Shown here: positions 7,501 to 39,441 of the stretch, piece by piece
Layout of the letters: every line of letters begins with the position of its first letter
Position numbering within the stretch: the first letter of the stretch is position 1
Source of the DNA: Prevotella sp.
GTDB taxonomy: Bacteria > Bacteroidota > Bacteroidia > Bacteroidales > Bacteroidaceae
DNA length: 64,000 nucleotides
Direction of reading: 5' to 3'
Assembly (NCBI GenBank): GCA_017619375.1
Contig: JAFZSL010000031.1
Coordinates: forward strand, 114,176-178,175
Made by a program: the position numbers and the translations under genes
The notes under the pieces: model-generated
Told to the model about the DNA's origin: nothing
The model's database searches: none
What the model saw: only the letters and a program-made list of their open reading frames with translations

Positions 7501-8260
7501 AATGACTTTGCTCTTTAACAAAAGTACAGGTGACGGCAACTTCCGCTTCCGTTACTACAAGGCCATAAATAATACTAATGTTCCCATCCAACTCTACAAG
7601 CAAGTGGTAGAAGAGCCTTACACGGTCACCATTCAATCTCAGGCCACAGATGGTACAGATTATTATGCCACCATGGCCGACATTGGTGCAGGATATTTCG
7701 AGGTGCCAGAGGGCGTGGAAGTAAAGACAGTGAATGTCATCAATGGCAAGCTGAACTATCCTACCACCTTCACCAAGGGTGATGTGATTACCGGCCAAGG
7801 TGCATACCTCGTTGTAGCTTCAGCCGCCGAATCGTACACCTTCCCCACGGTATTGGAAGGAACAACGACCTTGCCTGACAACGACCTCAAGAGTAGTGGC
7901 AAAGGTAATCTCAGCGCAACCGCCATGGCAGCCGCAAACGACGGCAACTTCAAGTTCTACAAGTTGTCCTTGCGCAATGGCAAGATTGGTTTCTATTGGG
8001 GTGCTGCTGATGGTGCCGCATTCGAGTACACCAAGAAGCAACAGGCTTATCTCGTGGTGGCACAGCCAGAGACAGGTAATTCCGAGTTAGCATCCGCATA
8101 CTTCTTCGATGGTGATGCCACGGGCATCTACAGCGTGAACGCTGAGATCGAGGATACGGAAGCCGAGGGCGTCTATAGCCTCTCCGGCGTTCGTATGGAC
8201 GGCAAGGCTCTACCCAAGGGCGTCTATATCGTGAATGGTAAAAAGAAGGTCATCAAATAA
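4514..8260 (+). CDS. Large secreted multi-domain protein with CHB_HEX_C-like, OB-fold and CBM-like domains and T9SS-like tail
   Basis: A 1,248-residue exported protein with no enzymatic domain recognised. It has a signal peptide (KQKLRFLMMTLLCAVVSSAWG). A chitobiase C-terminal-like domain lies near residues 150-235 (FSPSPGTY, ATIYYTTDES). An OB-fold-like domain follows near 490-650 (ITIAEAR, GVVTSISG, VYIQDA). Two tandem SusE/CBM-like beta domains come next (YYVAGTWTSW, YFLVGTFNNW). A C-terminal module with KFYKLSLRNGKIGFYWGA is also present in the protein at 41404-44307. The tail (VYSLSGVRMDGKALPKGVYI, ending in basic residues) resembles a T9SS type A sorting signal. ATG 4514 is preferred over 4505 because MKQK gives a typical signal start. 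A likely role is surface glycan binding; the substrate is unknown. Confidence 0.75.
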   Translation: MKQKLRFLMMTLLCAVVSSAWGETQSVTISPSQALNNGGVSPITVTCAKGDGTSNPAISSGQLRLYQAASGKTTGNTISFSSAKTITSIVFTFANNMTADNGVFSEGTYDSATSTWTGSTNSVTLTVIGNSSSKRIYITNMVVYYDDGGVITVAAPTFSPSPGTYTEAQTVSISAEDGATIYYTTDESTPSSSNGTEYSSAINISETTTIKAIAVKDGVSSDVASATYTIVAPYVVEDGIFNFVEYGYGMTQDNSGYNDNPTILEAGNITINLSGGSNSRYYNNSGSLELRVYKACTMKISAPEGKVITKVEFETGTPLSRILYDGEPLATALPEGTVPTNGAWEGCMNEVTFTFSNTVNISKITVTYGNAPIIALDPNTPNPITIPYTGTVSSEDNRVYIIDRGVADIGIQFYDADQTTPLQSAPSWFVSEIDTHSNVLYSIGENTGEERTVYFKVWGAETPNATENDRIYTDLVTITQEAAPITIAEARAQEVGDVVFTKGVVTSISGTNNKTVYIQDATAAICVYGSISTDLTIGDEITVSGTLKNYNGLLEITSPTCNVVSNDNEVEPTLMTISEINASTNQGWLVKIENATVSTIIGKDVTISQGENSIVVRFNDTADITFAVNDIINLTGNIGCYNITQIANPTNVEIQEGDKYYVAGTWTSWATNMIEMTKNSEGKYILTGQQLAAEVEFKIVKVAGESSTWYGGQADGDQYWLTADNHTDIQLVNGANFYMPIAGTWTFTVDPNNGSPKLTVEGSWPEPDYFLVGTFNNWTTSDDYKLTKDETTGKYTISAAIAQGETFKIIDSDGIWYGAVSNGDFYVEANFVGTELSLASPGNNYYMNLSNTANWSIVFDPANMQLVLSNYVLPDPNASYVYQKVTKTEDLTSGKYLIVYEDASVAFDGSLTTLDAGNNTQDVVITVFDKIYMKDAIYFNIDPTAGTIQSASGKYIGVSSNSNGLKTSDDPEAYTNSFAIDEDGNAVISAVFNGSTMTLLFNKSTGDGNFRFRYYKAINNTNVPIQLYKQVVEEPYTVTIQSQATDGTDYYATMADIGAGYFEVPEGVEVKTVNVINGKLNYPTTFTKGDVITGQGAYLVVASAAESYTFPTVLEGTTTLPDNDLKSSGKGNLSATAMAAANDGNFKFYKLSLRNGKIGFYWGAADGAAFEYTKKQQAYLVVAQPETGNSELASAYFFDGDATGIYSVNAEIEDTEAEGVYSLSGVRMDGKALPKGVYIVNGKKKVIK

Positions 8261-8265
8261 AGAGA

Positions 8266-8271
8266 AGGAGG
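8266..8271 (+). promoter_or_regulatory. Strong ribosome-binding site for the 56-aa peptide gene
   Basis: A perfect AGGAGG lies 10 bp before ATG 8282 and 5 bp after the stop of the upstream gene. Such a strong Shine-Dalgarno is uncommon in this window and supports translation of the short ORF. Confidence 0.7.
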
Positions 8272-8281
8272 AAAGAAGAAT

Positions 8282-8452
8282 ATGAAAAAGTATGTTTGCC
8301 CCGTGACAGAAATCATTGCGCTCTCTGCCGAGCCTATCATGGATCTCGGCTACAGCGAAGGCCAAGGAGAAGGAGAGTTTGGCAACCGCAATACGTTCGA
8401 GGAGGACGTGAGTGCAGAATACAACAATTCCAAGTCACTCTGGGATGACTAA
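8282..8452 (+). CDS. 56-residue acidic peptide, Prevotella-type small protein, function unknown
   Basis: The ORF begins 21 nt after the secreted protein's stop and encodes 56 residues. It opens with MKKYVCPVTEIIALSAEPIM, followed by a Gly/Glu-rich stretch (GYSEGQGEGEFG) and an acidic Asn/Ser-rich end finishing in LWDD. The N-terminus has no real hydrophobic core, so it is not a typical signal peptide. From memory, short ORFs opening MKKY-xPxxE followed by a Leu/Glu/Met stretch are frequent in Prevotella and Bacteroides without assigned function. The RBS and tight coupling suggest co-expression with the upstream surface protein. Roles such as a processed peptide or accessory factor are speculation. 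Confidence 0.65.
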   Translation: MKKYVCPVTEIIALSAEPIMDLGYSEGQGEGEFGNRNTFEEDVSAEYNNSKSLWDD

Positions 8453-25855: not shown

Positions 25856-26530
25856 TTATTCCCGGCAACTGGCATAGAGGTCTGCGAGCGATGGTTTAGG
25901 AACCCCTTTGGTCACCGCTGTGTCGAGATCGCGCTTCGCTTCCTTCTTTTTTCCCATCTTGATGAGGAGGTCGGCCCTTGAGAGGAGGAAGTCCACGTTG
26001 TCAGGATCGAGGCGAATGGCTTGCGAGAAGTCGTATTCCGCCACCTCCATCATTCCCCTCTCCTGTTCCATCCCCGCCCTGGCAGCATAGGCCACGGCAT
26101 TATCGGGATATTGCTCCACGAGACGGTTGATCATGTTCATCGCTTCGGTATAGCGCATGTCCTTCTGATTGAGCAGCGCCAACCCCAGTTGTCCGTTGAA
26201 ATTTCCCGGAACGACCTTGAGCATCCGTTCATAATCCTTTCTGGCAAAAGGATACTTGTGAAGTCGTTCAAAAGCATATGCCCTATAATAAAGAGCGGCA
26301 ACGTTGTCGGAATCCTTGGCGAGCACCACGTCGTATTCCTGACGGGCATAGTCCCACTGTTCCAGGAGGAGGTTCCACGATGCCTTTCTCAATCTCAAGT
26401 CCACGTTGTCGGGAAACTTCCTGAGTTTTTCGGCGGCTTCGGCCAAAGAGTCCTTCAACTCAGCATAAGATTGCGCATGAATGGTCACCGTAAACAAAAC
26501 AGCAACCCCCAACAAGACAAGTCTTCTCAT
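25856..26530 (-). CDS. Exported tetratricopeptide-repeat protein
   Basis: A 224-residue protein with a signal peptide ([19 protein letters not shown]) and at least five TPR units (for example [40 protein letters not shown] and [18 protein letters not shown]). TPRs mediate protein-protein contacts; no partner is evident. Its ATG (26528-26530) overlaps the leuB stop as ATGA, so it is translationally coupled as the last gene of the leucine operon although it looks unrelated to amino acid synthesis. A longer reading to 26557 lies inside leuB and is rejected. Confidence 0.8.
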
Positions 26531-27588
26531 TGATTCTTGATCCAATCGACAATCCATTGTCCCACCTCACGCGTGCCATAAGCAGCACCGCCCTCCACCT
26601 GAATTTCCGGAGTGCGCACGTTTGCATCGAGACTGGCGTCCACCGCCTTCCTCACCAATGCCGCCTCATCGTTAAGGCTGAAATGCTCGAGCATCATGGC
26701 CACGGACAAGATTTGCGCGAGCGGGTTGGCGAGATTCATCCCCGCTGCCTGAGGCCACGAGCCATGCACAGGTTCGAACACCGGCGTGCTCTCTCCGGTT
26801 GAAGCGGAAGGCAACAACCCCATTGAACCAGAGATGCAACTCCCCTCGTCGGTAAGGATATCTCCGAAAGTGTTCTCCGTGACCATCACGTCGAAGAACG
26901 TTGGTTCGGCAATCATCCGCATGGCGGCGTTGTCAACAAACATGTAATCCACCTTGACATCAGGGTAGGATGGTTCCATCTCCTTGGCAATCTGCCTCCA
27001 CAGCCTGCTTGAGGCGAGAATGTTAGCCTTGTCCACCACCGTGAGATGATGATGGCGTTTCCTGGCATAGTCGAAGCCCACCTTCAAGATGCGCTCTACT
27101 TCCGGCCGTGTGTAATAATTGGTGTCGTAAGCCTTGTCATTGTCCTGATATTTCTCACCGAAATACATGCCACCAGTGAGTTCGCGGATGCAGATGAAGT
27201 CGGCTCCCTCCACGAGTTCCGCCCTCAACGGACTCTTGTGCAAGAGGCATTTGAAAGTCTGCACAGGCCGGATGTTGGCAAAAAGGCCCAAGCGCTTGCG
27301 CATGGCCAGCAATCCCTGCTCCGGCCTCACCTTTGCAGTAGGATCGTTGTCATACTTGGGGTCTCCCACTGCGGCGAAGAGGACAGCGTCGGCATCCTTG
27401 CAGGCTTGGAATGTCTCTTCAGGGAAAGGGTCGCCCACCTCTTCGATGGCCTTCGCCCCGCAGATGGCCTCGACGTAAGTCACTTCATGTCCGAATTTTT
27501 CAGCGATGGCATCCATGACGGCCACGCCTTGTGTCATGATCTCTGGTCCTATACCGTCGCCAGAGAGGACGGCTATTTTAAGTTTCAT
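26527..27588 (-). CDS. leuB: 3-isopropylmalate dehydrogenase
   Basis: A 353-residue NAD-dependent decarboxylating dehydrogenase. It oxidises 3-isopropylmalate to 4-methyl-2-oxopentanoate in leucine synthesis and, in citramalate-pathway organisms, 3-methylmalate to 2-oxobutyrate. Seen: GDGIGPEIM at the N-terminus, [12 protein letters not shown], the metal-binding VDNAAMRMI region, [10 protein letters not shown], and [18 protein letters not shown]. It is the fifth enzyme gene of the operon, 75 bp after the cimA-like gene. That gap contains short AGGAGTTTTT-type repeats. Confidence 0.97.
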
Positions 27589-27663: not shown

Positions 27664-29208
27664 TCAGCTTTGCTCCTCGAAGATGTTGAGCATGCGGAGG
27701 GTGGCCTTGATGGCGGCCTCTGTCTGGTCGGCGTCGAGTCCCCTTGTCCTGATCATCTTGTCGCCATTTCTCCAAGTGATGACCGTTTGCACGAGAGCGT
27801 CTGTTCGCCCTCCCGGCGGTATGGTGACGGCGTAGTTGGCCAGGATGGGGAAAGTGCGGTCAAGGTAGGTCTTGTAGATTTTCCTCAACGCCTTCACGAA
27901 AGCGTCGTACTGCCCGTCGCCCGTAGACTCGGCAGCATATTGCTTCCCACGGATTTCCACCTTGATACTTGCTATAGGCTTGAGTCCATAGGTAGAGGTG
28001 ACCATATAGGAGATGAGTTTGACCTTCTCTTCCGGCGTAGTGTGCTTGAGGACATCGTTGACGATGTAAGGCAGGTCATCCTGCGTGACGATTTCCTTCC
28101 TTTCCCCCAGTTCGGTGATTCTTTTCGACACTTTCGCCATCTGTTCCGCAGTGAGTTCCAATCCGAGTTTTTGAAGGTTGAGTGCGACATTGGCCTTGCC
28201 GCTATTCTTTCCCAGCGCGTACTCCCTTCTTCTGCCAAACCTTTCCGGGACGAGGGCGTTGCAATAGAGCAGGTTCTTGTTGTCCCCGTCGGCATGCACC
28301 CCTGCCACCTGGGTGAAGACATTGTCGCCCACGATGGGTTGGTTGGGTGCTATGGCAATGCCGCTGTACTCCTCAACCAAACGGCTGATGTCGTTGAGTT
28401 TGTCCTCCTTGATGTTAGTCCTTGCGAGGAATTGGTCCTTGAGAATGACTTGCACGCTGGCCAGGGGAGCATTGCCACATCGCTCGCCGAGGCCGTTGAC
28501 CGTCACATGGATTCCCTTGGCTCCACAAAGCACTGCCGCAAGAGAGTTGGAGACGGCGAGGTCGTAGTCATTGTGAGCGTGGAAGTCGAAATGGACGTCA
28601 GGGAAGCGTTTCCTCATTTTCCTAAAAAACTCGATGACTTGCAAAGGATTTGTGATGCCTAAGGTGTCGGGCAGCATGAAACGCTTGATGTTGGTCTTGA
28701 CGAGTTGTTCCATGAGGCGGTAGATGTAGTCAGGCGAGTCGTGCATCCCACTGCTCCAGTCCTCAAGATAGATGTTGACCCCCATGCCTTTCTTTTCGGC
28801 ATAGTCGAGGGACCTCATGATGTCATCCAAGTGCTCGTCAGGTGTTTTATGGAGTTGCTCCGTGCAATGTTTGAGCGACCCCTTCGCCAGGAGATTGATG
28901 TTGTGGCATCCACAACTGTCAATCCAGTCGATGGACTGTTTCCCATCGACGAAACCGAGCACCTCCACCTTGTTGAGCATCCCCACCTTCTCCGCATACT
29001 TGCAGATGAGTTTTACCGCATCCTTCTCCCCTTCCGACACCTTGGCCGAGGCCACCTCCAACCTGTCGACATTGATGTCGTTCATGAGCATTCTTGCGAT
29101 CATGAGTTTCTCATGAGGGAGGAAAGAGACGCCGCTGGTCTGCTCGCCATCCCTGAGCGTGCTGTCCATGATCTCGATGAGCGGGTGTGTGAAAGTCGTC
29201 GTTTCCAT
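27664..29208 (-). CDS. cimA: Citramalate synthase-like HMGL enzyme (second isopropylmalate synthase homolog)
   Basis: About 514 residues: an HMGL-type TIM barrel followed by a LeuA regulatory (LeuA_dimer) domain (about 400-514). Motifs are STLRDGEQTSGVSF, the metal-ligand HAHNDYDLAVSNS, GLGERCGNAPL and GVHADGDNKNLLY. From memory, these and segments such as RLEVASAKVSEGE, NIYLEDWSSG and IPPGGRTDALVQT resemble the characterised Leptospira (R)-citramalate synthase more than classical LeuA, which is present separately at 31248-32756. It would condense pyruvate and acetyl-CoA to citramalate, feeding LeuCD and LeuB toward 2-oxobutyrate and isoleucine. ATG 29208 overlaps the leuD stop by one base; the upstream start at 29229 is less likely. 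A second 2-isopropylmalate synthase is the alternative. Confidence 0.75.
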   Translation of the reverse strand: METTTFTHPLIEIMDSTLRDGEQTSGVSFLPHEKLMIARMLMNDINVDRLEVASAKVSEGEKDAVKLICKYAEKVGMLNKVEVLGFVDGKQSIDWIDSCGCHNINLLAKGSLKHCTEQLHKTPDEHLDDIMRSLDYAEKKGMGVNIYLEDWSSGMHDSPDYIYRLMEQLVKTNIKRFMLPDTLGITNPLQVIEFFRKMRKRFPDVHFDFHAHNDYDLAVSNSLAAVLCGAKGIHVTVNGLGERCGNAPLASVQVILKDQFLARTNIKEDKLNDISRLVEEYSGIAIAPNQPIVGDNVFTQVAGVHADGDNKNLLYCNALVPERFGRRREYALGKNSGKANVALNLQKLGLELTAEQMAKVSKRITELGERKEIVTQDDLPYIVNDVLKHTTPEEKVKLISYMVTSTYGLKPIASIKVEIRGKQYAAESTGDGQYDAFVKALRKIYKTYLDRTFPILANYAVTIPPGGRTDALVQTVITWRNGDKMIRTRGLDADQTEAAIKATLRMLNIFEEQS

Positions 29209-29798
29209 CAGTTGTTCTTGCTTTCCCATGCTTCTATCTTGTCCGTGTTTTGAAGAAGGAAGTCAATGTCGTCGAGCCCGTTGACCAGGCAATGCTTCTT
29301 GTAGCCATTGATTTCGAAGTGTTCGCTCCTTCCCGTCGCGAGGTTGGTGACAGTCTGGTTGGGCAGGTCTACCTCCACCTCCATCTTAGGATTGTCATGG
29401 ATGCATTGGAAGAGTTCGGCGAGGAAGCCCTCCGTCACCACCACAGGCAGGACGAAATTATTGAGTTCGTTGTTCTTGTGTATGTCGGCAAAAAAGGAAC
29501 TGATGACGACTCTGAAGCCATATCCGGCGATGGCCCAAGCGGCATGTTCTCTCGACGAGCCAGACCCGAAATTCTTCCCTACGACGAAGATGCATCCTCC
29601 GTAGGTAGGGTCATTAAGCACGAAGTCCTTGATGGGTTTTCCTTCCTTGTCGTATCTCCAGTCTCGGAAGAGATTGTCACCGAATCCCTCCTTGTCTGTA
29701 GCCTTGAGGTATCGCGCCGGTATGATTTGGTCGGTGTCCACATTTTCAAGGGGCAGTGGCACACATGTTGACTTGATGATATTGAATTTCTGTTTCAT
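29208..29798 (-). CDS. leuD: 3-isopropylmalate dehydratase small subunit
   Basis: A 196-residue swivel-domain subunit pairing with LeuC to isomerise 2- to 3-isopropylmalate (and citramalate to methylmalate). Seen: VPLPLENVDTDQIIPARYLK at the start and FVVGKNFGSGSSREHAAWAI in the active-site loop. Length is typical. Its stop overlaps the start of the cimA-like gene by one base (TGATG). A 58-bp gap separates it from leuC and contains a short dispersed repeat (29831-29856). Confidence 0.97.
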   Translation of the reverse strand: MKQKFNIIKSTCVPLPLENVDTDQIIPARYLKATDKEGFGDNLFRDWRYDKEGKPIKDFVLNDPTYGGCIFVVGKNFGSGSSREHAAWAIAGYGFRVVISSFFADIHKNNELNNFVLPVVVTEGFLAELFQCIHDNPKMEVEVDLPNQTVTNLATGRSEHFEINGYKKHCLVNGLDDIDFLLQNTDKIEAWESKNN

Positions 29799-29856: not shown

Positions 29857-31251
29857 TCACATCAACTCCCTTGGGTCGGTGATGACACCTGTGACAGCGG
29901 CGGCGGCAGCCACCAAGGGACTGGCGAGAATCGTCCTGGCACCAGGTCCCTGTCGTCCTTCGAAATTGCGGTTGCTGGTGGAGACACAGTATTTTCCTTC
30001 TGGCACCTTGTCGTCGTTCATGGCGAGACAGGCCGAGCATCCAGGTTGTCTGATTTCGAAACCCGCCTCAGCAAGCACCCTGTCAAGACCTTCTTCGCGA
30101 ATCTGCCTATCCACCTCCCAACTGCCCGGAACGAGCCATGCGATGATGTTATCTGCCTTCTTCCTGCCTTTCACCATATTGGTGAAGGCACGGAAGTCCT
30201 CTATCCTTCCGTTGGTGCAAGCGCCGAGGAACACATAGTCGACAGGGTGTCCCAACAGCGATTCGCCCTCTTTCAAACCCATGTATTCCAATGCCTTTTT
30301 GAAGGAAGCCCTTGCTCGTGGCTCAACGCTTTCCTGCGTGGGAATCTTTTCAGTGACGGCAATGCCCATGCCGGGATTTGTGCCATAAGTGATGCGTGGC
30401 AGGATGTCGGCGGCATCGAAAACCAGTTCCTTGTCAAACACGGCATCGTTGTCGCTCTTGAGCGTTCTCCAATATTCCACCGCCTTCTCCCATTCCTCCT
30501 CCTTGGGTGCATATGGCCTGCCCTTGAGATAAGCGAAAGTGATGTCATCGGGAGCCACGAATCCTCCCCTCGCACCCATTTCTATGCTGAGGTTGCAGAG
30601 AGTGAGACGGCCTTCCATGGACATTTCTCTTACGACATCGCCAGCATATTCGATGAAATGCCCGGTTGCCCCTGATGTGGTCAGCTGAGCCATGAGATAG
30701 AGAGCCACGTCTTTGGGTGTGACACCTTTTCCCAATTTGCCGTTGATGGTGATTCTCATCGACTTGGGTTTCTGTTGGAGGATGCACTGCGAGGCGAGCA
30801 CCATCTCCACTTCAGACGTGCCGATTCCGAAAGCGACGGCCCCCACAGCCCCATGGGTGGAAGTGTGAGAGTCACCACACACGATGGTCATCCCGGGGAG
30901 CGACAGCCCCTTTTCAGGTCCCACAACATGGACGATGCCATTGTCGGGCGACATCATGCCGAAATGTGCGAGTGAGAACTCCTTGCAGTTGCGTTCGAGT
31001 GTGTCCACCTGTTTCTTGGACACTGGGTCCTCGATGGGTTTGTCCTGGTCGTGGGTGGGAGTGTTGTGGTCGGGCATGCAAAAGATTTGTCCAGGCCTTA
31101 AACATTTCAGTTTCCTTGCTCTCATGCCATCGAAAGCCTGTGGCGAGGTGACCTCATGGCAATACATACGGTCGATGTATAGTTGAGTGGGACCATCCTC
31201 CACCAATTGCACGACGTGCCTGTCCCAAATTTTGTCGAATAGGGTGTTCAT
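29857..31251 (-). CDS. leuC: 3-isopropylmalate dehydratase large subunit
   Basis: A 464-residue aconitase-family [4Fe-4S] subunit. Cluster cysteines appear in FLGACTNGR and in [29 protein letters not shown] and [14 protein letters not shown] are also typical. It works with LeuD. Its ATG (31249-31251) overlaps the leuA stop (ATGA), giving tight coupling. Confidence 0.97.
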
Positions 31252-32756
31252 AAATGTTTTTCCTTGAATTTGTTGATGCAGTCGATATATGCCTCCACCG
31301 ACGCGGTGACGATGTCGGTATTGGCTCCAAAGCCGTAGTAAAGTCCCCCATCATATTCCACAGACATGTGAACCTTTCCCACGTCGTTGGAACCTTTTGA
31401 AATGGCTTGGATGGTGAACTCCTTCATGGTCATTTTCTTCTGTATGATTTTCTTGAGCGCGTTGATGGCCGCATCCACGGGTCCGTTTCCAGTGGACGCC
31501 GCCTCGAATTTCTGGTTGCTGATGTCCAAACCGATGCTGGCAACGCTTCTCACGCCCATTCCCGTGGTCACCTGCAGGAAATCGAGTTTGACAGCGTGCG
31601 TCTCTGCGGTGTCGGCCCCGGCAATCATGAGGATGTCGGCGTCGGTGACCTCCTTTTTCTGGTCGGCGAGTTTAAGGAACTTCTCATAAATCTTGTCGAT
31701 CCTGCTCTCGTTGTCCACATTGACGCCCAGCACCCGGAGTCGGTATTTGAGCGCCGCCCTTCCCGATCTTGCGGTAAGTACGATGGAATTGTCGTCAAGT
31801 CCGATGTCCTTAGGGTCGATGATCTCATAAGTGCCGGCATCCTTGAGCACTCCATCCTGGTGAATGCCGCTGGAATGTGCGAATGCATTGCGTCCCACGA
31901 TGGCCTTGTTGGGCTGAACGGGCATGTTCATCAAGCTCGACACCAGGCGGCTGATGGGATAGATTTTTGTGGTGTTGATGTTGGTCTCCAGGCCGAGGTT
32001 CTTATGGCATTTGAGGATCATGGCTATTTCCTCGAGCGAGGTGTTACCCGCTCTTTCCCCTATCCCATTGATAGTGACCTCCACCTGCCTTGCCCCATTG
32101 ACGACCCCCTCGAAAGTGTTGGCGGTGGCCAATCCGAGATCGTTATGGCAGTGGGTGGAGATGACGGCGTTGTGTATGCCATCGACATGTTCCATGAGGT
32201 ATTTGATTTTCTCCCCATACTCTTGCGGCAGGCAGTATCCCGTGGTGTCGGGTATGTTGACGGTGGTGGCACCGGCCTTGATGACAGCTTCTATCACCCT
32301 TGCGAGATATTCGTTGTCGGTGCGTCCGGCATCCTCGGCATAGAACTCCACGTCCTCGACATACTTCTTGGCATATTTCACGGCGGCGACTGCCCTCTCG
32401 ATGATTTCCTCCCTGGTGGAATTGAACTTGAACTTGATATGGGAGTCACTGGTTCCGATGCCGGTATGGATGCGTTTGTGCTTGGCATACTGCAGCGATT
32501 CCACCGCCACATCGATGTCTTTTTCCACGGCCCTGGTGAGGGCGCAGATGACGGGCCATGTCACGGCCTTGGAGATTTCGATGACCGAGTGGAAGTCACC
32601 CGGACTGGAGATGGGAAAGCCCGCCTCAATCACATCCACGCCCAGCAGTTCGAGCTGTCGTGCCACTTCGATTTTCTCCACGGTGTTGAGCTGGCATCCG
32701 GGAACTTGCTCGCCGTCGCGCAGCGTCGTGTCGAAAACATACAATCTGTCATTCAT
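31248..32756 (-). CDS. leuA: 2-isopropylmalate synthase
   Basis: About 502 residues, condensing 2-ketoisovalerate with acetyl-CoA, the committed step of leucine synthesis. Seen: the N-terminal [13 protein letters not shown], the HMGL motif [40 protein letters not shown] and a C-terminal regulatory LeuA_dimer domain where leucine feedback would act. ATG 32756 (MNDRLYVFD) is chosen because homologs begin there; the frame upstream to 32795 runs toward the attenuator. First enzyme gene of the operon, about 50 nt after the terminator hairpin. Confidence 0.96.
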
Positions 32757-32804
32757 ATACTTCAATATTAAAAAACCTTTGTGCAATCCAGGCACCCCTC
32801 ATCA

Positions 32805-32842
32805 ACAAAAAAGCCTTTCACACTTCTGGAAGTGAGAAAGGC
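32805..32842 (-). terminator. leu operon attenuator (Rho-independent terminator in the leader)
   Basis: On the minus strand, arms at 32842-32830 and 32825-32813 pair with one mismatch around a 4-nt loop, followed by a U-tract (32812-32807). It stands between the leader peptide and leuA. Its first arm contains TCACTTCC (32835-32828), which is perfectly complementary to GGAAGTGA within leader codons 20-22 (32888-32881). This provides an alternative antiterminator pairing. Confidence 0.85.
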
Positions 32843-32864
32843 CATATCCTGTCAACAGGTATCT

Positions 32865-32945
32865 TCAAACGCGCACCTTGTCACTTCCCGCAGCTCTTGG
32901 CAGTAGGAGGTCAATAATGCCGATAATAATACTGTTGTTAGTCAT
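32865..32945 (-). CDS. Branched-chain amino acid leader peptide (26 aa)
   Basis: ATG at 32945-32943, TGA ending at 32865. The peptide is MTNNSIIIGIIDLLLPRAAG followed by SDKVRV. It holds five Ile codons (one ATC, four ATT), three consecutive Leu codons (CTC, CTA, CTG) and two Val codons near the end. It begins about 48 nt after the predicted transcription start and ends 22 nt before the terminator stem. Ribosome stalling at the Ile/Leu run would leave codons 20-22 free to sequester the terminator arm. Ribosomes reaching the stop would cover them and permit termination. No protein function is expected beyond regulation. Confidence 0.88.
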   Translation of the reverse strand: MTNNSIIIGIIDLLLPRAAGSDKVRV

Positions 32946-32999
32946 TGTCGAAAGTCTTAATGAAAAGGTCTCCACAAGGGAGTTTCGTCTTTGCGATTG

Positions 33000-33031
33000 C
33001 AAAAGTAGCACTTTTCAGCCATCCAAACAAA
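33000..33031 (-). promoter_or_regulatory. Promoter of the leu operon
   Basis: On the minus strand TTTG (33031-33028) and TACTTTTG (33007-33000) are 20 bp apart, a perfect Bacteroidetes promoter. Initiation is expected near 32993. The 32757-33115 gap is thus fully accounted for by promoter, leader peptide and attenuator. Confidence 0.82.
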
Positions 33032-33115
33032 TAATTTGACACTTTTTTGGTGTTTTTTTGCGTCATTTTTTTATTTCCCATGGTTGGCGGCCACTTTTCC
33101 AAGGAGAAATCACCT

Positions 33116-35602
33116 TCATAAGATGTTGCCAACTTTGACCTTTATCTCATCTCCGCGATAAATGACTTGCCGGGTCTCTCCATTCACCAGGCGTACTTGG
33201 AACTGTCGAGCCTCAGGCATACCTACGAACCGTCCCTCACGTTTTCCTATCGTCAATTCCTTCTGGCTTTCATCCCACTTCAAGACGATGCGCGAACATG
33301 CCCCCTTTTCATAATCGTTGCTCCATCCATCGTCCTCATAGAGGGTGAAGACGGCATCGGCACCTGGATAAACACGTAATTCCATCGGGCCGTGTTGTGT
33401 CATCGAAGAAAGGAGCGGGTCGACAGCCAACGGCAGGATGCTGCCCCCACGCACGAACACGGGAATACGGGTCTTGTCGATGCGTGTTGTCACGGTTTGC
33501 CCACCCTTATAGGACTCCCCCGTCAGGTAGTCATACCAGCCCTTCTCTTCATTTGGAAGGTAAGTCTGCCATGTCGTCAATCCAGGTTTGGTGACCGGCG
33601 AGATCAGTAGTGACTTGCCAAACATGTAATCACAATCCTGATGCAAGGCAGTCGGGTCATCGGGGAAGTCGAAGACCAACGGACGCATCAACGTGGAGCC
33701 ATCGTAGGTGACGGCGGCTGCAAGGCTGTAGACATAAGGTTGTATGTGGTAACGCTCATTCAGGCACTTGGTGATGATGTCCTGCGCCTCCTTTCCATAG
33801 TTCCATGGTTCGGTGTTGCTCATATAGCCATGAACCCTCATCAAAGGTAGATAGACGCTCGTCTCTATCCATCTCAACATCCTCTCGATGTATTGCGGGT
33901 CTTCATACTGGTCGCGTGGACGGAAGAAGCCACCAGCGTCATAGGTCCACCATGGAATGCCGGCCGCCTGCATGCCGAGTCCCGCAATGATTTGACGGCG
34001 GAAAGTCTCCCAGTCGTTGCCAACGTCGCCAGACCACAAGGCAGAGCCATATCTCTGAATGCCGGGGAAGCCGCATCTGGTGAGAATCATCGGCCTCTGC
34101 TGCGGCCTGTCTTTCCTCAACCCTTCATACACGGTCTTGTTCACCAACAGGGGATATACATTGCGCACCTTCTCGCCACTCCATTTCCCATTGTTGACTT
34201 TCCTTCCTACGAGGTCGTCGTTCTCTGGTTCCGTAGCATCCTGCCACCATGCATCGATGCCGAGTGGGAGGAGCCTCTGGCTGAAATTCCTCCAATAGGC
34301 GTCGGCGGCATCTTTCGAGAAAAAGTCAATCCAGTCTGTTCCTGGGATGTAATGTCCGGCCTGCTCCATCTGCTTGCCCACCTCGGAGTTCTTGTCGATC
34401 TTCGACCACACGCTCAACATCAGTTTGATGCCCCTTGAATGCAGGCTGTCAGTCAATTGTTTCGGGTCTGGATAATATTCCTCGTCGAACCTCATGGAGT
34501 TCCATCCATATTTACCCCAATACTGCCAGTCCTGGACGAGCACGTCGATGGGCATGTTTTCCTTTCTGAAACGGTCGGCGGTGGACAGGATTTCCTCTTG
34601 CGAATGGAACCGCTCCCTGCAATGGATGTATCCAGTGGCCCACCTCGGCATCAGCGGCGCCTTGCCCGTCAACTCGCGGTAGGTGGCGATGACCTCGTCG
34701 GCAGAACCCACGAAAACAGTATAGTCAACAGCCTCTGCCACGGGTGACTTGAAGACGGTCTCATCCTTGACGAGTTGATAATACAGGACGGGGGAGTCGC
34801 CATTTGAAAGTTCCGCCGTCACCTCGTGCTTCCCTTTTTTCAGGTGCACGATGGTCGATGCCGTCGGCGGCAGCCACAGGTTCTGCATCTCTATGACGGT
34901 GTTTCCATCGATGACCAAGTTGTGCCGACGAGCCATTTTCTGCCCCACATCGAGCAGGAGTGCGTAGTCGCCCTCCTTGGTAATGGAGAGCGTCTCCTTG
35001 AAGATGTTGCGCTCGCGCACTTCCCTCCTTCCTCCTTCGGTGGAGGTGACATTCACCATCTCCTTCTCTCCCACACCTTCGGCCTTCACCAGTGCGACAT
35101 GGTTTTCCGCAGGATTGAACTCCACGAGTCCGTAATTGTTCCACAACAGGCCATACCCCTTGTTAGAGAGGATCATAGGTATGGAAATCTGCGTGTTGAC
35201 CTGTGTCAGTCGCCTTGACAAACCACGGATGTTGGAAAAGCCATCCTGGAACTGTCCCAATCCATAGAGGCACTCATCCTTTGGCGAAGCGAATGCCAAT
35301 GTCGCTCCACCATCGGCCAATCGATGTTGGGTGGCGACAAGCACCGCCCTCCCCTCCTTGTCCCTGATGGTCACGGTGTGTTTCCTTTTATCTACATCCA
35401 CCTTGAGGTCATTTTGCACCTCATCGTGTTTCACATACAACCAGTCGGGAAGGTCACTGTCGTCAGCATGCTCATAATATTGGATACGAACGGCGTTTTT
35501 CGCCACTTTCCTGACATTCAGCCACCCTTTTCCGAAAGGAATGCCTTGGGCTTGTAATGAAACGGACACGAAGAGTGACAAGAACAAGAATAGTCTTTTC
35601 AT
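33116..35602 (-). CDS. Secreted GH31 family alpha-glycosidase (alpha-xylosidase/alpha-glucosidase type)
   Basis: 828 residues with a signal peptide (RLFLFLSLFVSVSLQAQG). An N-terminal beta-sandwich leads to a GH31 (beta/alpha)8 barrel. The predicted nucleophile is Asp455 in WWQDATEPE and the acid/base Asp526 in SGDVGND. QDWQYWGKYGWNSMRFDEEY and RCGFPGIQRYGSALWSGD support the family, as does the C-terminal beta region (GGSILPLAV). It should release terminal alpha-linked glucose or xylose from oligosaccharides in the periplasm or at the surface. Specificity is not determinable; the NWGK-like loop and IPWWTYDAGGFF recall xyloglucan alpha-xylosidases. Monocistronic, ending 85 bp before the leu promoter. 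Confidence 0.9.
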   Translation of the reverse strand: MKRLFLFLSLFVSVSLQAQGIPFGKGWLNVRKVAKNAVRIQYYEHADDSDLPDWLYVKHDEVQNDLKVDVDKRKHTVTIRDKEGRAVLVATQHRLADGGATLAFASPKDECLYGLGQFQDGFSNIRGLSRRLTQVNTQISIPMILSNKGYGLLWNNYGLVEFNPAENHVALVKAEGVGEKEMVNVTSTEGGRREVRERNIFKETLSITKEGDYALLLDVGQKMARRHNLVIDGNTVIEMQNLWLPPTASTIVHLKKGKHEVTAELSNGDSPVLYYQLVKDETVFKSPVAEAVDYTVFVGSADEVIATYRELTGKAPLMPRWATGYIHCRERFHSQEEILSTADRFRKENMPIDVLVQDWQYWGKYGWNSMRFDEEYYPDPKQLTDSLHSRGIKLMLSVWSKIDKNSEVGKQMEQAGHYIPGTDWIDFFSKDAADAYWRNFSQRLLPLGIDAWWQDATEPENDDLVGRKVNNGKWSGEKVRNVYPLLVNKTVYEGLRKDRPQQRPMILTRCGFPGIQRYGSALWSGDVGNDWETFRRQIIAGLGMQAAGIPWWTYDAGGFFRPRDQYEDPQYIERMLRWIETSVYLPLMRVHGYMSNTEPWNYGKEAQDIITKCLNERYHIQPYVYSLAAAVTYDGSTLMRPLVFDFPDDPTALHQDCDYMFGKSLLISPVTKPGLTTWQTYLPNEEKGWYDYLTGESYKGGQTVTTRIDKTRIPVFVRGGSILPLAVDPLLSSMTQHGPMELRVYPGADAVFTLYEDDGWSNDYEKGACSRIVLKWDESQKELTIGKREGRFVGMPEARQFQVRLVNGETRQVIYRGDEIKVKVGNIL

Positions 35603-35829: not shown

Positions 35830-38800
35830 TCATTCTCCAAGGACGATTCCTACAAGAATTGTCACATCAGTTACATTAACGATTCCATCACCATTGACGT
35901 CGGCAGCGACATGGTCGTATGCCGGCCATATAAACGGTTCCTCCATGTCATCATCCAAAACAATACTGACAAGTGCGGTGACATCAGTTATATTGACGAC
36001 GCCATCCTTGTTCACGTCACCGATGAGTTTTTCCTTGAGAGGTGTCTGGAAGGCTATCTCATAGAGGTATCCGCGATACGTACCAGCCTCCACCTTGTAT
36101 ATCTTCCCGGCCTCGAGGCCATCGGCACTCAAATCCGCTGTACTTTGATAAGTTGAGAATTCAATATTCTTGACGTGTGTTGATGAAGCGGTCAACGTAC
36201 CATCATCATTCAACGTACATTCATAGACTCTGAGATAGGTGGGGTATGATGAAGAAGAATAGTAAGACCTACCGAAATAGCCAAGCAACCTCACTGCCGT
36301 CACATTGCTCACATAGAACGTGGCATTGTATAAAGTAGTCCCTCTCGAGCTGGCATTGCCCAACACACGTGCTGCAGCCGTGGTGAAATAAGTATCATTT
36401 CCGCAATAGGGGCTATCTTCAGAGAATTTTCCCATCCAGTTTGCTTGATCCCCTCCGGTGTATGGACTTCCCGAAGCGGAAGTGATATTGGAATTCATCC
36501 ATGCCTGCGGATGCCCACTACCTAATGTTGAACTTTCAGGGCTGTATTTTGCACCCACCAAAGCACCATATACGGGCAGTGTGAGCCATGCCACGTTGTC
36601 ATTCTTGTATTCTTTGTATTCATAGAGACTATTCAGCAATGCTGTACGCCATCCCTGGTCGTCTATGGTTTTGTAGTTGGCGATGTTGAGATAGGCATCT
36701 GCGGCAGTCCCCCCTTCTGTTGCTGTGGCACTGAGATTGATGGTCACGCTTTGTGCTCCCTGGCTTGCCAGAGTGATGGAGCCGGTGAACGTATCTGCCC
36801 TATCGGCATTGAAAGTCACAGTCACCTCCACACCCTGCTCGATGGCGGAAACCGGGATGGTGTTTGTGCTGACGCTGAAGACGTTGTTGGCATCGTTGAG
36901 AGTCACAGAGATATCTTGGCTGAGGAACCGTCCAGAGACAGTGAAAGTCTGCGTGTATTCTTGGTTGATTTGCCCGTTGAAGGTGAGTTCAGACACATTG
37001 GCAACGATGGTAGGTGTGGCAACTTGGGATGTGCCATGGATGTTGACAACCACATCTTCAGCCCCTTGACTCGAAAGCGTGATGGTGGCGTCGTTCTGTC
37101 CAGCCACGGTTGGTGTCCACGTGACGGTGACATCCACCCCGTTCTCAGCAGCCTGACGAGTAATGCTGGTCTTGTTGATGCTGTACACATGGTTGGGGTC
37201 ATTAAGCGTGACCGAGATGTTTCCTTCGAGGCTCAAGCCTTTCACATTCAACGTCTGTGTATAGGTCTGTGTGGTGTAACCTTCGAATGACAGTTCTGCG
37301 GGTGTAGCGACGATGCTTGGTCCTCCTGAAACCCCGAGTATATACTTGATGCCAGCGAGAGCATCGATTTTTCCATTTCCGAAATGCGAGGCATTGGGAC
37401 CGGAGGTTGTATAATAATCCTTGATGGCCGTCTGCTGCATCACCTCCTTGATATCATCGTTGGTCATTTGCTTATTCACCTCCTTTGCAGCCTGCAACCA
37501 CAGAGCCACGATACCTGCAGCCGTTGGTGTGGCCATCGACGTTCCATCCATTGCCGCGTAAGGATTGGTGGTATTGGCGTTCACACGATCCTCCTTGTAA
37601 TCGCCAGTGGTATAATCCGAACTGTAATGGTTGACAGCAGACACGATACGTGCACCAGGAGCCGTAATCCAAGGATATTGCAATCCCGTCGGACTTTCGT
37701 TAGCAGTGGCATAGCTTGAGAAATAGGCGATATCATCGACGGTGAAAGAGCTACTGTAGTCATGTGTTGTACCATTATAGTCTTTGATGACGTTTTTCGA
37801 CACGTATGCACCTATGGAGATGACATTGGGATAAGTAGCCTCGTCACTCACCGTCATATCATCAGACCCAGCCTTCCAATTGTATCCGCTTGTAGTGAGA
37901 TGGTTGGTGAAATAGCAATAATTGCCTCCCCAAACATCGACGAATGCACTGCCATTGGTGGGATAGAATTCGACAGCCAGCGTATATTTGCTCTTATAAT
38001 AGGTTTCCCCGTTTTGTGTCGTTGATGTGGTGCTTCTGGATGTCAACCCCGAGGTATAGAGCAATATCTGAGTCTTGTCGGAATCGATAAAATCCTTGTA
38101 AGCATAAAGATTTCCACTGAAATAACTACTTAGTCCGGAGACACTCGCCCCACTGGTGCTTGGATTGACAGTGACAGTGGTTTTAACAGCCCCCGTGGTT
38201 GCGTCGAGCACATGGATTTTGCATCCCATGCTGCTGACATTGGTTGACCGGCACCAGACGTTGGCAATCGGGCCATAGTAAAAATATCCGCCATCAGTGT
38301 TGGTATAGTAATGGCTCCTGAGAATTGTCCTCAAAGGATTGCTGCTGCTTGCCGTAGCCGAAACATGATAGCCGCCACCCTCATTATCCTTGGATTTGCC
38401 AGCGTCATTGGATGCGGCGAAAAGACAAATGTGATTGGAATGGCTGGGACCGAAATAGGTGTTTATGACATCAGCGAAGTCTCCTGTGCCATCATGGGGT
38501 CCAAACTGCGACCCCCAGCTGTTGCTCACCACGACAGGAAGGTTTTGTTGGTCGGCATAAGAGATAATATTTGCGAAAGCATTGCTAATGTACGAGTCAG
38601 CCAGTCCGTTGACACCTGCCAAATAGAGGTCGGCTCCTGGTGCCATACCACCATACGTAGCATTGGCATGGTCGTCGGTTACGGTGACACTGCTCCCGCT
38701 GATAATGACACTCGAACCACCCGCAGTGGAACAAGTATGAGTGCCGTGGTCGGAACTTGAGTCATCAGTAGTGGGCGAGCTACTGGTAATAGACGTATAT

Positions 38801-39441
38801 TCCTTGGCCGTTGAGCCATTATAAACGTACGCCCTTTTGATGCGGCTGTTGCCAGCTTTGTCTTTGAAGGCGATATGCTGGAAGTCGATGCCATCGTCGA
38901 TGACAGCAAGCAACACTCCGGTGCCGTCATAGCCATGAGATAGCCCTTCCGCCCGTGCATCGTCGGACCAAGTGAGCACATCGTCAGTATTGGTTTTCTT
39001 CCGTGCCTCATTGGTGGATGGTTTCATCAACGGCGAGACATTGATACGTGTCACATTGCCTATGGCCGCCGCCTCCTCAATCTTGTCGACGGGAATCAGG
39101 GCCGTGATGAGTCCATTGATGAATTTGGTTTGCACCACCACGCCCAATGCTTCGAGATCCTGTGTGTCTTCATTGTCCTGAAGGCGTACGAAGCATGAGA
39201 TATACACCTTGCCGTCAATAGTGTCGGGCTTGGCATACATACGGTCGGGTAAAGGTCCTCCTTTACCAATAATCACTTTGCCGATGGGCTGTGAAGCCTG
39301 GTTACTGGGGGTCATATCCAGTTTTCCATTCAATTCATCCAAGAACATCTGTGTGGTGATTGACAGTTTGCCGTCCTCAGATTGAGCGAATCCCATGAGT
39401 GTGAACACTGCAAGGGTGAAGGTCAGTAAAAATCTTCTCAT
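35830..39441 (-). CDS. Secreted subtilisin-family (S8) serine protease with C-terminal dockerin
   Basis: 1,203 residues. A signal peptide (RRFLLTFTLAVFTLMGFAQ) and a propeptide-like region (about 20-150) precede the S8 domain: Asp182 in AVIDDGID, His232 in DHGTHTCS, oxyanion Asn345 in AASNDAG and Ser635 in DGTSMATP, with a large insert between Asn and Ser. Two tandem beta-sandwich repeats follow (about 700-900; PAELSFEGY and VSELTFNGQ mark their starts). A non-catalytic domain comes next. Last are two dockerin-like calcium loops (DVNKDGVVNITDVTALV and DVNGDGIVNVTDVTILV). It probably degrades extracellular protein. A dockerin without any visible cohesin is odd; see findings. Confidence 0.92.
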   Translation of the reverse strand: MRRFLLTFTLAVFTLMGFAQSEDGKLSITTQMFLDELNGKLDMTPSNQASQPIGKVIIGKGGPLPDRMYAKPDTIDGKVYISCFVRLQDNEDTQDLEALGVVVQTKFINGLITALIPVDKIEEAAAIGNVTRINVSPLMKPSTNEARKKTNTDDVLTWSDDARAEGLSHGYDGTGVLLAVIDDGIDFQHIAFKDKAGNSRIKRAYVYNGSTAKEYTSITSSSPTTDDSSSDHGTHTCSTAGGSSVIISGSSVTVTDDHANATYGGMAPGADLYLAGVNGLADSYISNAFANIISYADQQNLPVVVSNSWGSQFGPHDGTGDFADVINTYFGPSHSNHICLFAASNDAGKSKDNEGGGYHVSATASSSNPLRTILRSHYYTNTDGGYFYYGPIANVWCRSTNVSSMGCKIHVLDATTGAVKTTVTVNPSTSGASVSGLSSYFSGNLYAYKDFIDSDKTQILLYTSGLTSRSTTSTTQNGETYYKSKYTLAVEFYPTNGSAFVDVWGGNYCYFTNHLTTSGYNWKAGSDDMTVSDEATYPNVISIGAYVSKNVIKDYNGTTHDYSSSFTVDDIAYFSSYATANESPTGLQYPWITAPGARIVSAVNHYSSDYTTGDYKEDRVNANTTNPYAAMDGTSMATPTAAGIVALWLQAAKEVNKQMTNDDIKEVMQQTAIKDYYTTSGPNASHFGNGKIDALAGIKYILGVSGGPSIVATPAELSFEGYTTQTYTQTLNVKGLSLEGNISVTLNDPNHVYSINKTSITRQAAENGVDVTVTWTPTVAGQNDATITLSSQGAEDVVVNIHGTSQVATPTIVANVSELTFNGQINQEYTQTFTVSGRFLSQDISVTLNDANNVFSVSTNTIPVSAIEQGVEVTVTFNADRADTFTGSITLASQGAQSVTINLSATATEGGTAADAYLNIANYKTIDDQGWRTALLNSLYEYKEYKNDNVAWLTLPVYGALVGAKYSPESSTLGSGHPQAWMNSNITSASGSPYTGGDQANWMGKFSEDSPYCGNDTYFTTAAARVLGNASSRGTTLYNATFYVSNVTAVRLLGYFGRSYYSSSSYPTYLRVYECTLNDDGTLTASSTHVKNIEFSTYQSTADLSADGLEAGKIYKVEAGTYRGYLYEIAFQTPLKEKLIGDVNKDGVVNITDVTALVSIVLDDDMEEPFIWPAYDHVAADVNGDGIVNVTDVTILVGIVLGE

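Follow-up and report, generated by a model that had tools for sequence, protein, structure and literature searches.

What controls the leucine genes at this locus? The window analysed here, a 64,000-nt stretch of a Prevotella sp. contig, carries leuA on the minus strand with its ATG at 32756, and a sequence-only reading had proposed that the region ahead of it is a complete transcription attenuator with an isoleucine, leucine and valine leader peptide. We find every element named in that proposal present:

33000..33031, minus strand: promoter, TTTG at 33031-33028, a 20-nt spacer and TACTTTTG at 33007-33000 (sequence)
32865..32945, minus strand: leader ORF with ATG start, 26 codons plus TGA, MTNNSIIIGIIDLLLPRAAGSDKVRV (sequence; Ile/Leu run conserved in relatives)
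32901..32930, minus strand: control codons ATT ATT ATC GGC ATT ATT GAC CTC CTA CTG, codons 6-15 (sequence)
32876..32888, minus strand: antiterminator 5' strand, GGAAGTGA at 32888-32881 (codons 20-22) plus AAGG at 32879-32876 (fold)
32828..32841, minus strand: antiterminator 3' strand, which is also the terminator 5' arm, CCTT at 32841-32838 and TCACTTCC at 32835-32828 (sequence, fold)
32807..32843, minus strand: intrinsic terminator, hairpin 32843-32812 and U-run 32812-32807 (fold, covariation)

The promoter claimed earlier is present as TTTG plus TACTTTTG, which fits TAnnTTTG, the Bacteroidetes promoter consensus, and the 26-codon ORF holds five Ile, three Leu (CTC, CTA and CTG) and two Val codons exactly as had been described. 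The 8-nt complementarity reported between codons 20-22 and the terminator arm is perfect (GGAAGTGA against TCACTTCC), but the length given for it is too short, as AAGG:CCTT extends these 8 pairs to 12 in an antiterminator of 8+4 bp. The terminator, correctly placed ahead of leuA, folds at -17.1 kcal/mol (z -4.6), a value equalled by 0 of 200 shuffles. The 65-nt pre-terminator RNA, in which the 3' arm is not yet made, folds as the antiterminator with 12 pairs at -19.6 kcal/mol, beating shuffles only mildly (z -1.83, 12 of 200 as good). A simple sigma-70 and terminator scan reports none of the attenuator's parts because its rules omit the Bacteroidetes-type promoter and hairpins with an internal mismatch; it returns 0 terminator-like sites and one promoter-like site (32951-32923, minus strand; 1.3 expected), which overlaps the leader ORF.

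Behind the leader lie five genes that would probably share one transcript:

31248..32756, minus strand: leuA, 2-isopropylmalate synthase (TIGR00973, 660.1 bits, cut-off 598.7)
29857..31251, minus strand: leuC (TIGR00170, 644.8 bits, cut-off 560.25)
29208..29798, minus strand: leuD (TIGR00171, 193.7 bits, cut-off 116.25)
27664..29229, minus strand: cimA-like gene, predicted (R)-citramalate synthase (NF042433 CimA, 609.4 bits, E 4.8e-183)
26527..27588, minus strand: leuB, 3-isopropylmalate dehydrogenase (TIGR00169, 430.3 bits, cut-off 353.2)

CimA (NF042433) is the best NCBIfam match of the cimA-like gene, yet below the curated cut-off of 950. Citramalate synthase and LeuCDB together yield 2-ketobutyrate for isoleucine, so that an operon holding a CimA-like enzyme and LeuCDB would serve both leucine and isoleucine, and the Ile codons of the leader make sense because the operon also carries the cimA-like gene. 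The single IlvA model used (TIGR01127, E<=1e-60) has no match in the same genome, which is compatible with the citramalate route; passages of PMC9026213 present CimA as an alternative to IlvA in gut bacteria.

The leader was then compared across the order. Of 200 genomes sampled from the genus, 150 contain leuA at E<=1e-150; at E<=1e-100, so do 130 of 151 sampled at family level and 48 of 119 at order level. A further 140 stretches, 20 of them from the genus, were added to the survey. Our detector requires three things: a terminator whose tail is rich in U, a helix to serve as antiterminator, and an ORF whose end is close to that helix. It scores at least 80, our threshold, on 151 of 250 leuA upstream regions, or 144 of 242 after duplicate removal (genus 78/122, family 48/75, order 18/45). 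Its design and weights were written after all the genus sequences and some from elsewhere had been seen, and it credits Ile, Leu and Val codons by their total, so that the total is selected and the split among the three is unselected. The 98 of 242 regions below threshold are in part detector misses and in part plain loss, and 49 cimA-containing operons are also below it. Of the 144 detected attenuators, 136 have TAnnTTTG in the 130 nt that precede the leader ATG, against 18.3 expected from shuffles, and 118 have, in addition, TTTG 18-22 nt upstream of the box.

The geometry of the leader is shared as well. From the start of the last Ile/Leu codon to the antiterminator, 101 of the 144 measure 13-15 nt, the 15 nt of the window being the commonest distance, and the stop codon lies 18-30 nt past the antiterminator start in 108, with the 21 nt of the window again commonest. 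Since the front edge of a ribosome lies roughly a dozen nt beyond its A-site codon, this spacing implies that a stalled ribosome would just free the antiterminator strand and that one at the stop would cover it. Taking the 14 codons before the antiterminator as the control window, we find that Leu accounts for 25.8%, Ile for 24.3% and Val for 3.0% of 2013 codons. Codon choice departs from that of the leuA genes: CTA provides 33.5% of Leu codons in control windows (n=519) versus 2.3% in leuA (n=4634), and ATT 86% of Ile codons (n=490) versus 36% (n=6173). CUA is named as the most suitable leu control codon in E. coli in a passage of PMC1183508, which also cites a reduced sensitivity of the Salmonella leu leader upon exchange of CUA for CUG.

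We consider it very probable that the leader is a classical ribosome-mediated transcription attenuator sensing isoleucine and leucine; sequence and comparison support this through the parts themselves and how widely they are conserved, through two pairing strands that change in step from genus to genus, through the spacing, and through control codons that match the content of the operon. RNA polymerase would begin near 32993 and transcribe the leader. When Ile-tRNA or Leu-tRNA is short, the first ribosome on the ORF would stall in codons 6-15 with its front edge just short of GGAAGTGA, allowing GGAAGTGA/AAGG to pair with CCTT/TCACTTCC, and with this antiterminator formed, transcription would continue through leuA-leuC-leuD-cimA-leuB. 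When isoleucine and leucine are both plentiful, the ribosome would reach the stop codon, which lies 21 nt beyond the point where the antiterminator begins, and cover the antiterminator strand, so that the terminator would form and transcription would stop. A search of the 144 attenuators for a preemptor (1:2) hairpin, limited to ungapped helices, finds none, the best helix upstream scoring like those of shuffled upstream sequence (mean z -0.01, 4% at p<0.05), and in this the leader is unlike a trp-type four-segment attenuator. Because it has no preemptor, an untranslated leader would be expected to give readthrough and not termination. An ACTTC:GAAGT preemptor pairing proposed for some leaders was not borne out.

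Which amino acids are sensed can be asked by comparing the control codons with the genes behind them. We classed leaders as cimA+ where a same-strand cimA lies within 4.5 kb behind leuA, and as cimA- where there is none within that distance and at least 3.6 kb of sequence is in view, which gives 75 cimA+, 15 cimA- and 54 unclassed among the detected leaders. The cimA+ leaders average 3.89 Ile, 3.45 Leu and 0.43 Val control codons, and the cimA- leaders 0.13 Ile, 5.93 Leu and 0.13 Val. At least two Ile control codons are present in 72 of 75 cimA+ leaders (the three exceptions being L190 and L242, where the detector chose the wrong ORF, and L093) versus 0 of 15 cimA- leaders, which carry Leu only; 12 of these 15 come from genus g123, and the others are L174 (g127), L248 (g133) and L136, from another family. 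L196, with a score of 78, a Leu-only run and no cimA, is under the cut-off and outside the 15. In L199 and L200 cimA lies at 5.25 kb, in L197 it is on the opposite strand, and in L136 and L201, where the view ends after 3.9 and 3.65 kb, it is on other contigs. A leuA tree of 88 rows, from which L190 and L242 are excluded, shows 4 changes of cimA status. Its supported branches hold 3 independent pairs, and in all 3 of them Ile accompanies cimA (sign test p 0.25, which 3 pairs cannot bring to 0.05). The Ile/cimA link is sharp, with few events, only 3 to 4 of them independent.

Individual rearrangements follow the same lines. Among g123 leaders, that of the locus with cimA still in place (L202) reads IIIISILALRL, and those of its relatives resemble SLLNLLGLRL. 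The 13 further g123 genomes searched carry cimA elsewhere, some of them on the same contig at a distance of a few kb, and the 13 loci read by eye show no attenuator before it; the one weak detector hit there, L263, which scores 81.75 on a frame that opens with GTG and holds three I/L/V residues, is not credited as an attenuator. In G351 the operon is split: leuA stands alone behind a Leu leader, ..IAFLNLLVLRL.. (L174), and leuC-leuD-cimA has an Ile+Leu attenuator of its own, ..IINSGIILSLRIS.. (L271, detector 104.75). This is the only one of 19 cimA loci outside leuA operons, read by eye, with an attenuator before leuC of leuC-leuD-cimA; two more (L272 in G338 and L273 in G370) have one directly before cimA. 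In those two g133 genomes, cimA is first in a cimA-ilvE-ilvD-ilvB-(ilvN)-ilvC run upstream of leuA, and the leader before it, recognized by eye alone, reads MITSNLILVGIILLVLVE or MKATSIILSLLVVLLVKHK, with Ile, Leu and Val (the detector gives L272 a score of 71 on a different ORF and finds none in L273). Within this run NCBIfam names ilvE and ilvC in each of the two genomes and, in L289, ilvD and ilvB as well; in G370 ilvD lies at the corresponding place, and ilvN is a small ORF assigned by position only. At leuA of these two genomes (L185, L186) no attenuator is detected.

Leaders of the same build precede ilvD, where 40 of 68 distinct upstream regions score at least 80 (e.g., L276, L278, L279, L282, L284), with such runs as ..HIIRVVVV.. 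and TVLVVVVVVVLK. Their control windows average 2.25 Ile, 2.15 Leu and 4.08 Val, and at least three Val codons occur in 36 of 40, versus 0 of 144 leuA leaders. The contrast between Val-rich leaders before ilvD and Val-poor ones before leuA suggests that the downstream genes determine codon make-up and that the leuA leaders do not sense Val. The ilvD of the window's own genome is not among the 40: neither by eye nor with the detector is an attenuator found there, and about 20 nt separate the end of its promoter box from the ATG. The intergenic stretch upstream of this gene (L256, about 8000-8330) contains several near-identical head-to-tail units, GGCGCATATAGTCCTTTTAGTCCCCAAAGTCCGTAGACAAAA...

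These comparisons bear directly on the proposal that all three branched-chain amino acids are sensed at the window's leader. Its Ile and Leu parts stand, and its Val part, which draws on the two Val codons of the ORF, does not: both (codons 24 and 26) lie past the antiterminator start, behind the switch point, so a ribosome stalled at either would cover the antiterminator, and with Val so scarce in the control windows before leuA, so frequent before ilvD, and no ilv gene among leuA-leuC-leuD-cimA-leuB, we regard an Ile/Leu/Val leader as very unlikely.

Might the terminator instead answer to some other signal, a riboswitch ligand, a protein or a T-box, with the ORF incidental? The terminator is indeed the best supported single part of the leader. 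Against this, Rfam gives no family at gathering score anywhere in the window, Leu_leader (RF00512), Bacteroid-trp (RF01692) and T-box included, and even at E<=10 the interval 32700-33100 has no T-box, riboswitch or RF00512 match, its four sub-threshold matches being a PyrR site, two sRNAs and Phe_leader (other strand). Such a signal would also leave the Ile/Leu run, the spacing and the dependence on operon content unexplained, and we judge it very unlikely that one operates here in place of Ile/Leu attenuation.

Conservation of the leader among relatives, proposed earlier as a check, largely holds. From the genus we assembled 110 loci (30 of the 150 leuA-matching genomes plus 80 more) with 105 distinct upstream regions, of which 88 contain the ORF, the Ile/Leu run, the antiterminator and the terminator as judged by regular expression and by eye; the detector finds 74 of the 105, missing 15 of the 88 and adding one unseen by eye (L056). 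A strict GGAAGTG...CACTTCC pair, 20-100 nt apart, occurs in 72 of the 105. By eye, 17 loci lack the attenuator, among them L067, where too little contig is present. The attenuator appears to have been lost repeatedly in the genus (L016, L020, L024, L038 and others), and several of the attenuator-less loci have, by eye, a TAnnTTTG box near the leuA start. Another of the 17, L100, looks like a decaying attenuator, in which a terminator-like hairpin stays and the leader ORF and antiterminator are gone.

In many genus leaders the Ile/Leu run is followed by G-S-D-K-V-C or by x-K-stop. Where GGAAGTG is present in detected leaders (88), it is read as Gly-Ser in 78 and in another frame in 10 (x-Lys.., mostly then a stop), so it is the RNA that is conserved and not the encoded peptide tail. 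This reading in two frames speaks against a leader peptide that works in trans, and nothing at this locus calls for a trans role of either the peptide or a short leader RNA; a trans-acting attenuator leader peptide, peTrpL, is reported elsewhere (in part of PMC7298713), and the leader may have an additional role of that kind, yet as the explanation of this leader we find it exceedingly unlikely. The idea that the parts came together by chance in intergenic DNA rich in AT, in favour of which there is nothing but the ease with which short ORFs turn up, deserves practically no credence, because 144 of 242 real regions versus 3 of 750 dinucleotide shuffles reach a score of 80, and the window scores 99.5, where 0 of 750 shuffles reach 90.

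Covariation separates the two hairpins of the Ile/Leu attenuator. In an alignment of 85 genus rows (A1; L093, L102 and L105 of the 88 are excluded, their arms differing), 94.6% of terminator cells are paired and the covariation score is 0.214 versus 0.146 shuffled, with 0 of 500 as high; terminator covariation within the genus is strong. For the antiterminator, in a test weakened by some columns being shifted one base in rows without T in the arm, 90.9% of cells are paired versus 90.2% shuffled (10 of 500 as high), the covariation score is 0.098 versus 0.090 (25 of 500) and the double-change pairs number 3 versus 2.7 (320 of 500), so that covariation within the genus is weak at best. Across other genera, the two strands change together. 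GGAAGTG is absent from 56 of the 144 detected antiterminators, and both strands have changed in step in GTGAGAATGGT:GCCATTCTCAC (L146), in the 18-bp pair GCTCGGAGTGAGAGAGGC:GCCTTTCTTGCTCCGAGC (L173), in TTGTGGAAATGGGA:TCCCATTTCCACAA (L165) and in GTGAGAAAGGT:ACCTTTCTCAC (L168). When arms are swapped among 66 family and order attenuators, the own arm averages 23.1 versus 17.3 for swapped ones and lies above the swapped median in 51 of 66; the own partner does so in 32 of 40 ilvD and 49 of 78 genus attenuators. The antiterminator pairing, for which covariation had been suggested as evidence, accordingly shows little of it within the genus and coupled change outside.

How does this leader compare with known systems? 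The enteric leu attenuator (RF00512), whose details apart from its CUA codons are general background here, is alike in its Leu codons including CUA (three CUA codons in Salmonella), its choice between terminator and antiterminator, and its leu operon; unlike it, the present leader has no Rfam match, uses Ile codons too, precedes an operon with cimA, lacks a preemptor and belongs to another phylum. Enteric ilv leaders hold several branched-chain codons, as do the ilvD leaders found here. A further element, RF01692, which we take to be a trp attenuator, differs in giving no match in the window; as a candidate cis element in Bacteroidetes, listed in PMC2864571, this Bacteroid-trp RNA is otherwise a parallel. 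Attenuation of a branched-chain operon is common to the ilvGMEDA and ilvBN systems of E. coli and Salmonella treated in passages of PMC1183508, unlike which the leuA leader has Ile and Leu control codons only. Within the phylum, sections of PMC9723704 give strong clues for leader-peptide attenuation before amino-acid operons of Flavobacterium psychrophilum. A Leu-rich leader before branched-chain genes is also found in the S. aureus attenuator peptide, to judge from excerpts of PMC5794164, which differs in being from Firmicutes and acting beside CodY.

A 2010 terminator survey (PMC2965389, in the part available) had leader-peptide systems known only from Proteobacteria and Actinobacteria, ermC aside, besides its own find in Firmicutes, and a 2013 Rfam-based survey (passages of PMC3766115) suggests that four Rfam amino-acid attenuators may stem from gamma-proteobacteria, with very few transfers. 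The spread of the present family across Bacteroidales, a large gut order, would speak against such a narrow gamma-proteobacterial origin. Small ORFs of B. thetaiotaomicron are called reminiscent of leader peptides in part of PMC7366714, and the portions of PMC8632094 and PMC4833913 at hand contain no leuA leader of Bacteroidetes. In the literature searched, which took in few subscription journals, we find no description of this leuA leader. Hints of attenuation in Bacteroidetes are already published (PMC2864571, PMC9723704). The abstract of Vitreschak 2004 (FEMS) reportedly names Bacteroidetes/Chlorobi, and priority for attenuation in that group may be theirs.

A broader reading, to which we give about even chances, is that these leaders form an old, Rfam-absent, preemptor-less Bacteroidales family on branched-chain operons, whose control codons are rewritten when gene content changes: Ile+Leu before leuACD-cimA-leuB or a split-off leuCD-cimA, Leu alone where cimA is missing, Val-rich before ilvD, and Ile+Leu+Val before cimA-ilvEDBNC. 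If so, the function of an operon could be read off its codon run, and a leader that is not translated would by default leave the switch ON. The match between codons and gene content would amount to a natural test of attenuation without bench work, the leader codons could aid gene annotation and back cimA as an isoleucine gene, and the leaders suggest how surrounding amino acids may set these operons. They may also provide small, predictable sensors for Bacteroides genetics.

Upstream of the leader in the window, on the same strand, an 828-aa protein resembling a GH31-type glycosidase by eye (33116-35602, minus strand) ends about 85 nt before the leader promoter. Beyond it lies a 1203-aa protein (35830-39441, minus strand) that by eye resembles a protease of the subtilisin type carrying two dockerin-like repeats at its C terminus, GDVNKDGVVNITDVTALV / ADVNGDGIVNVTDVTILV.
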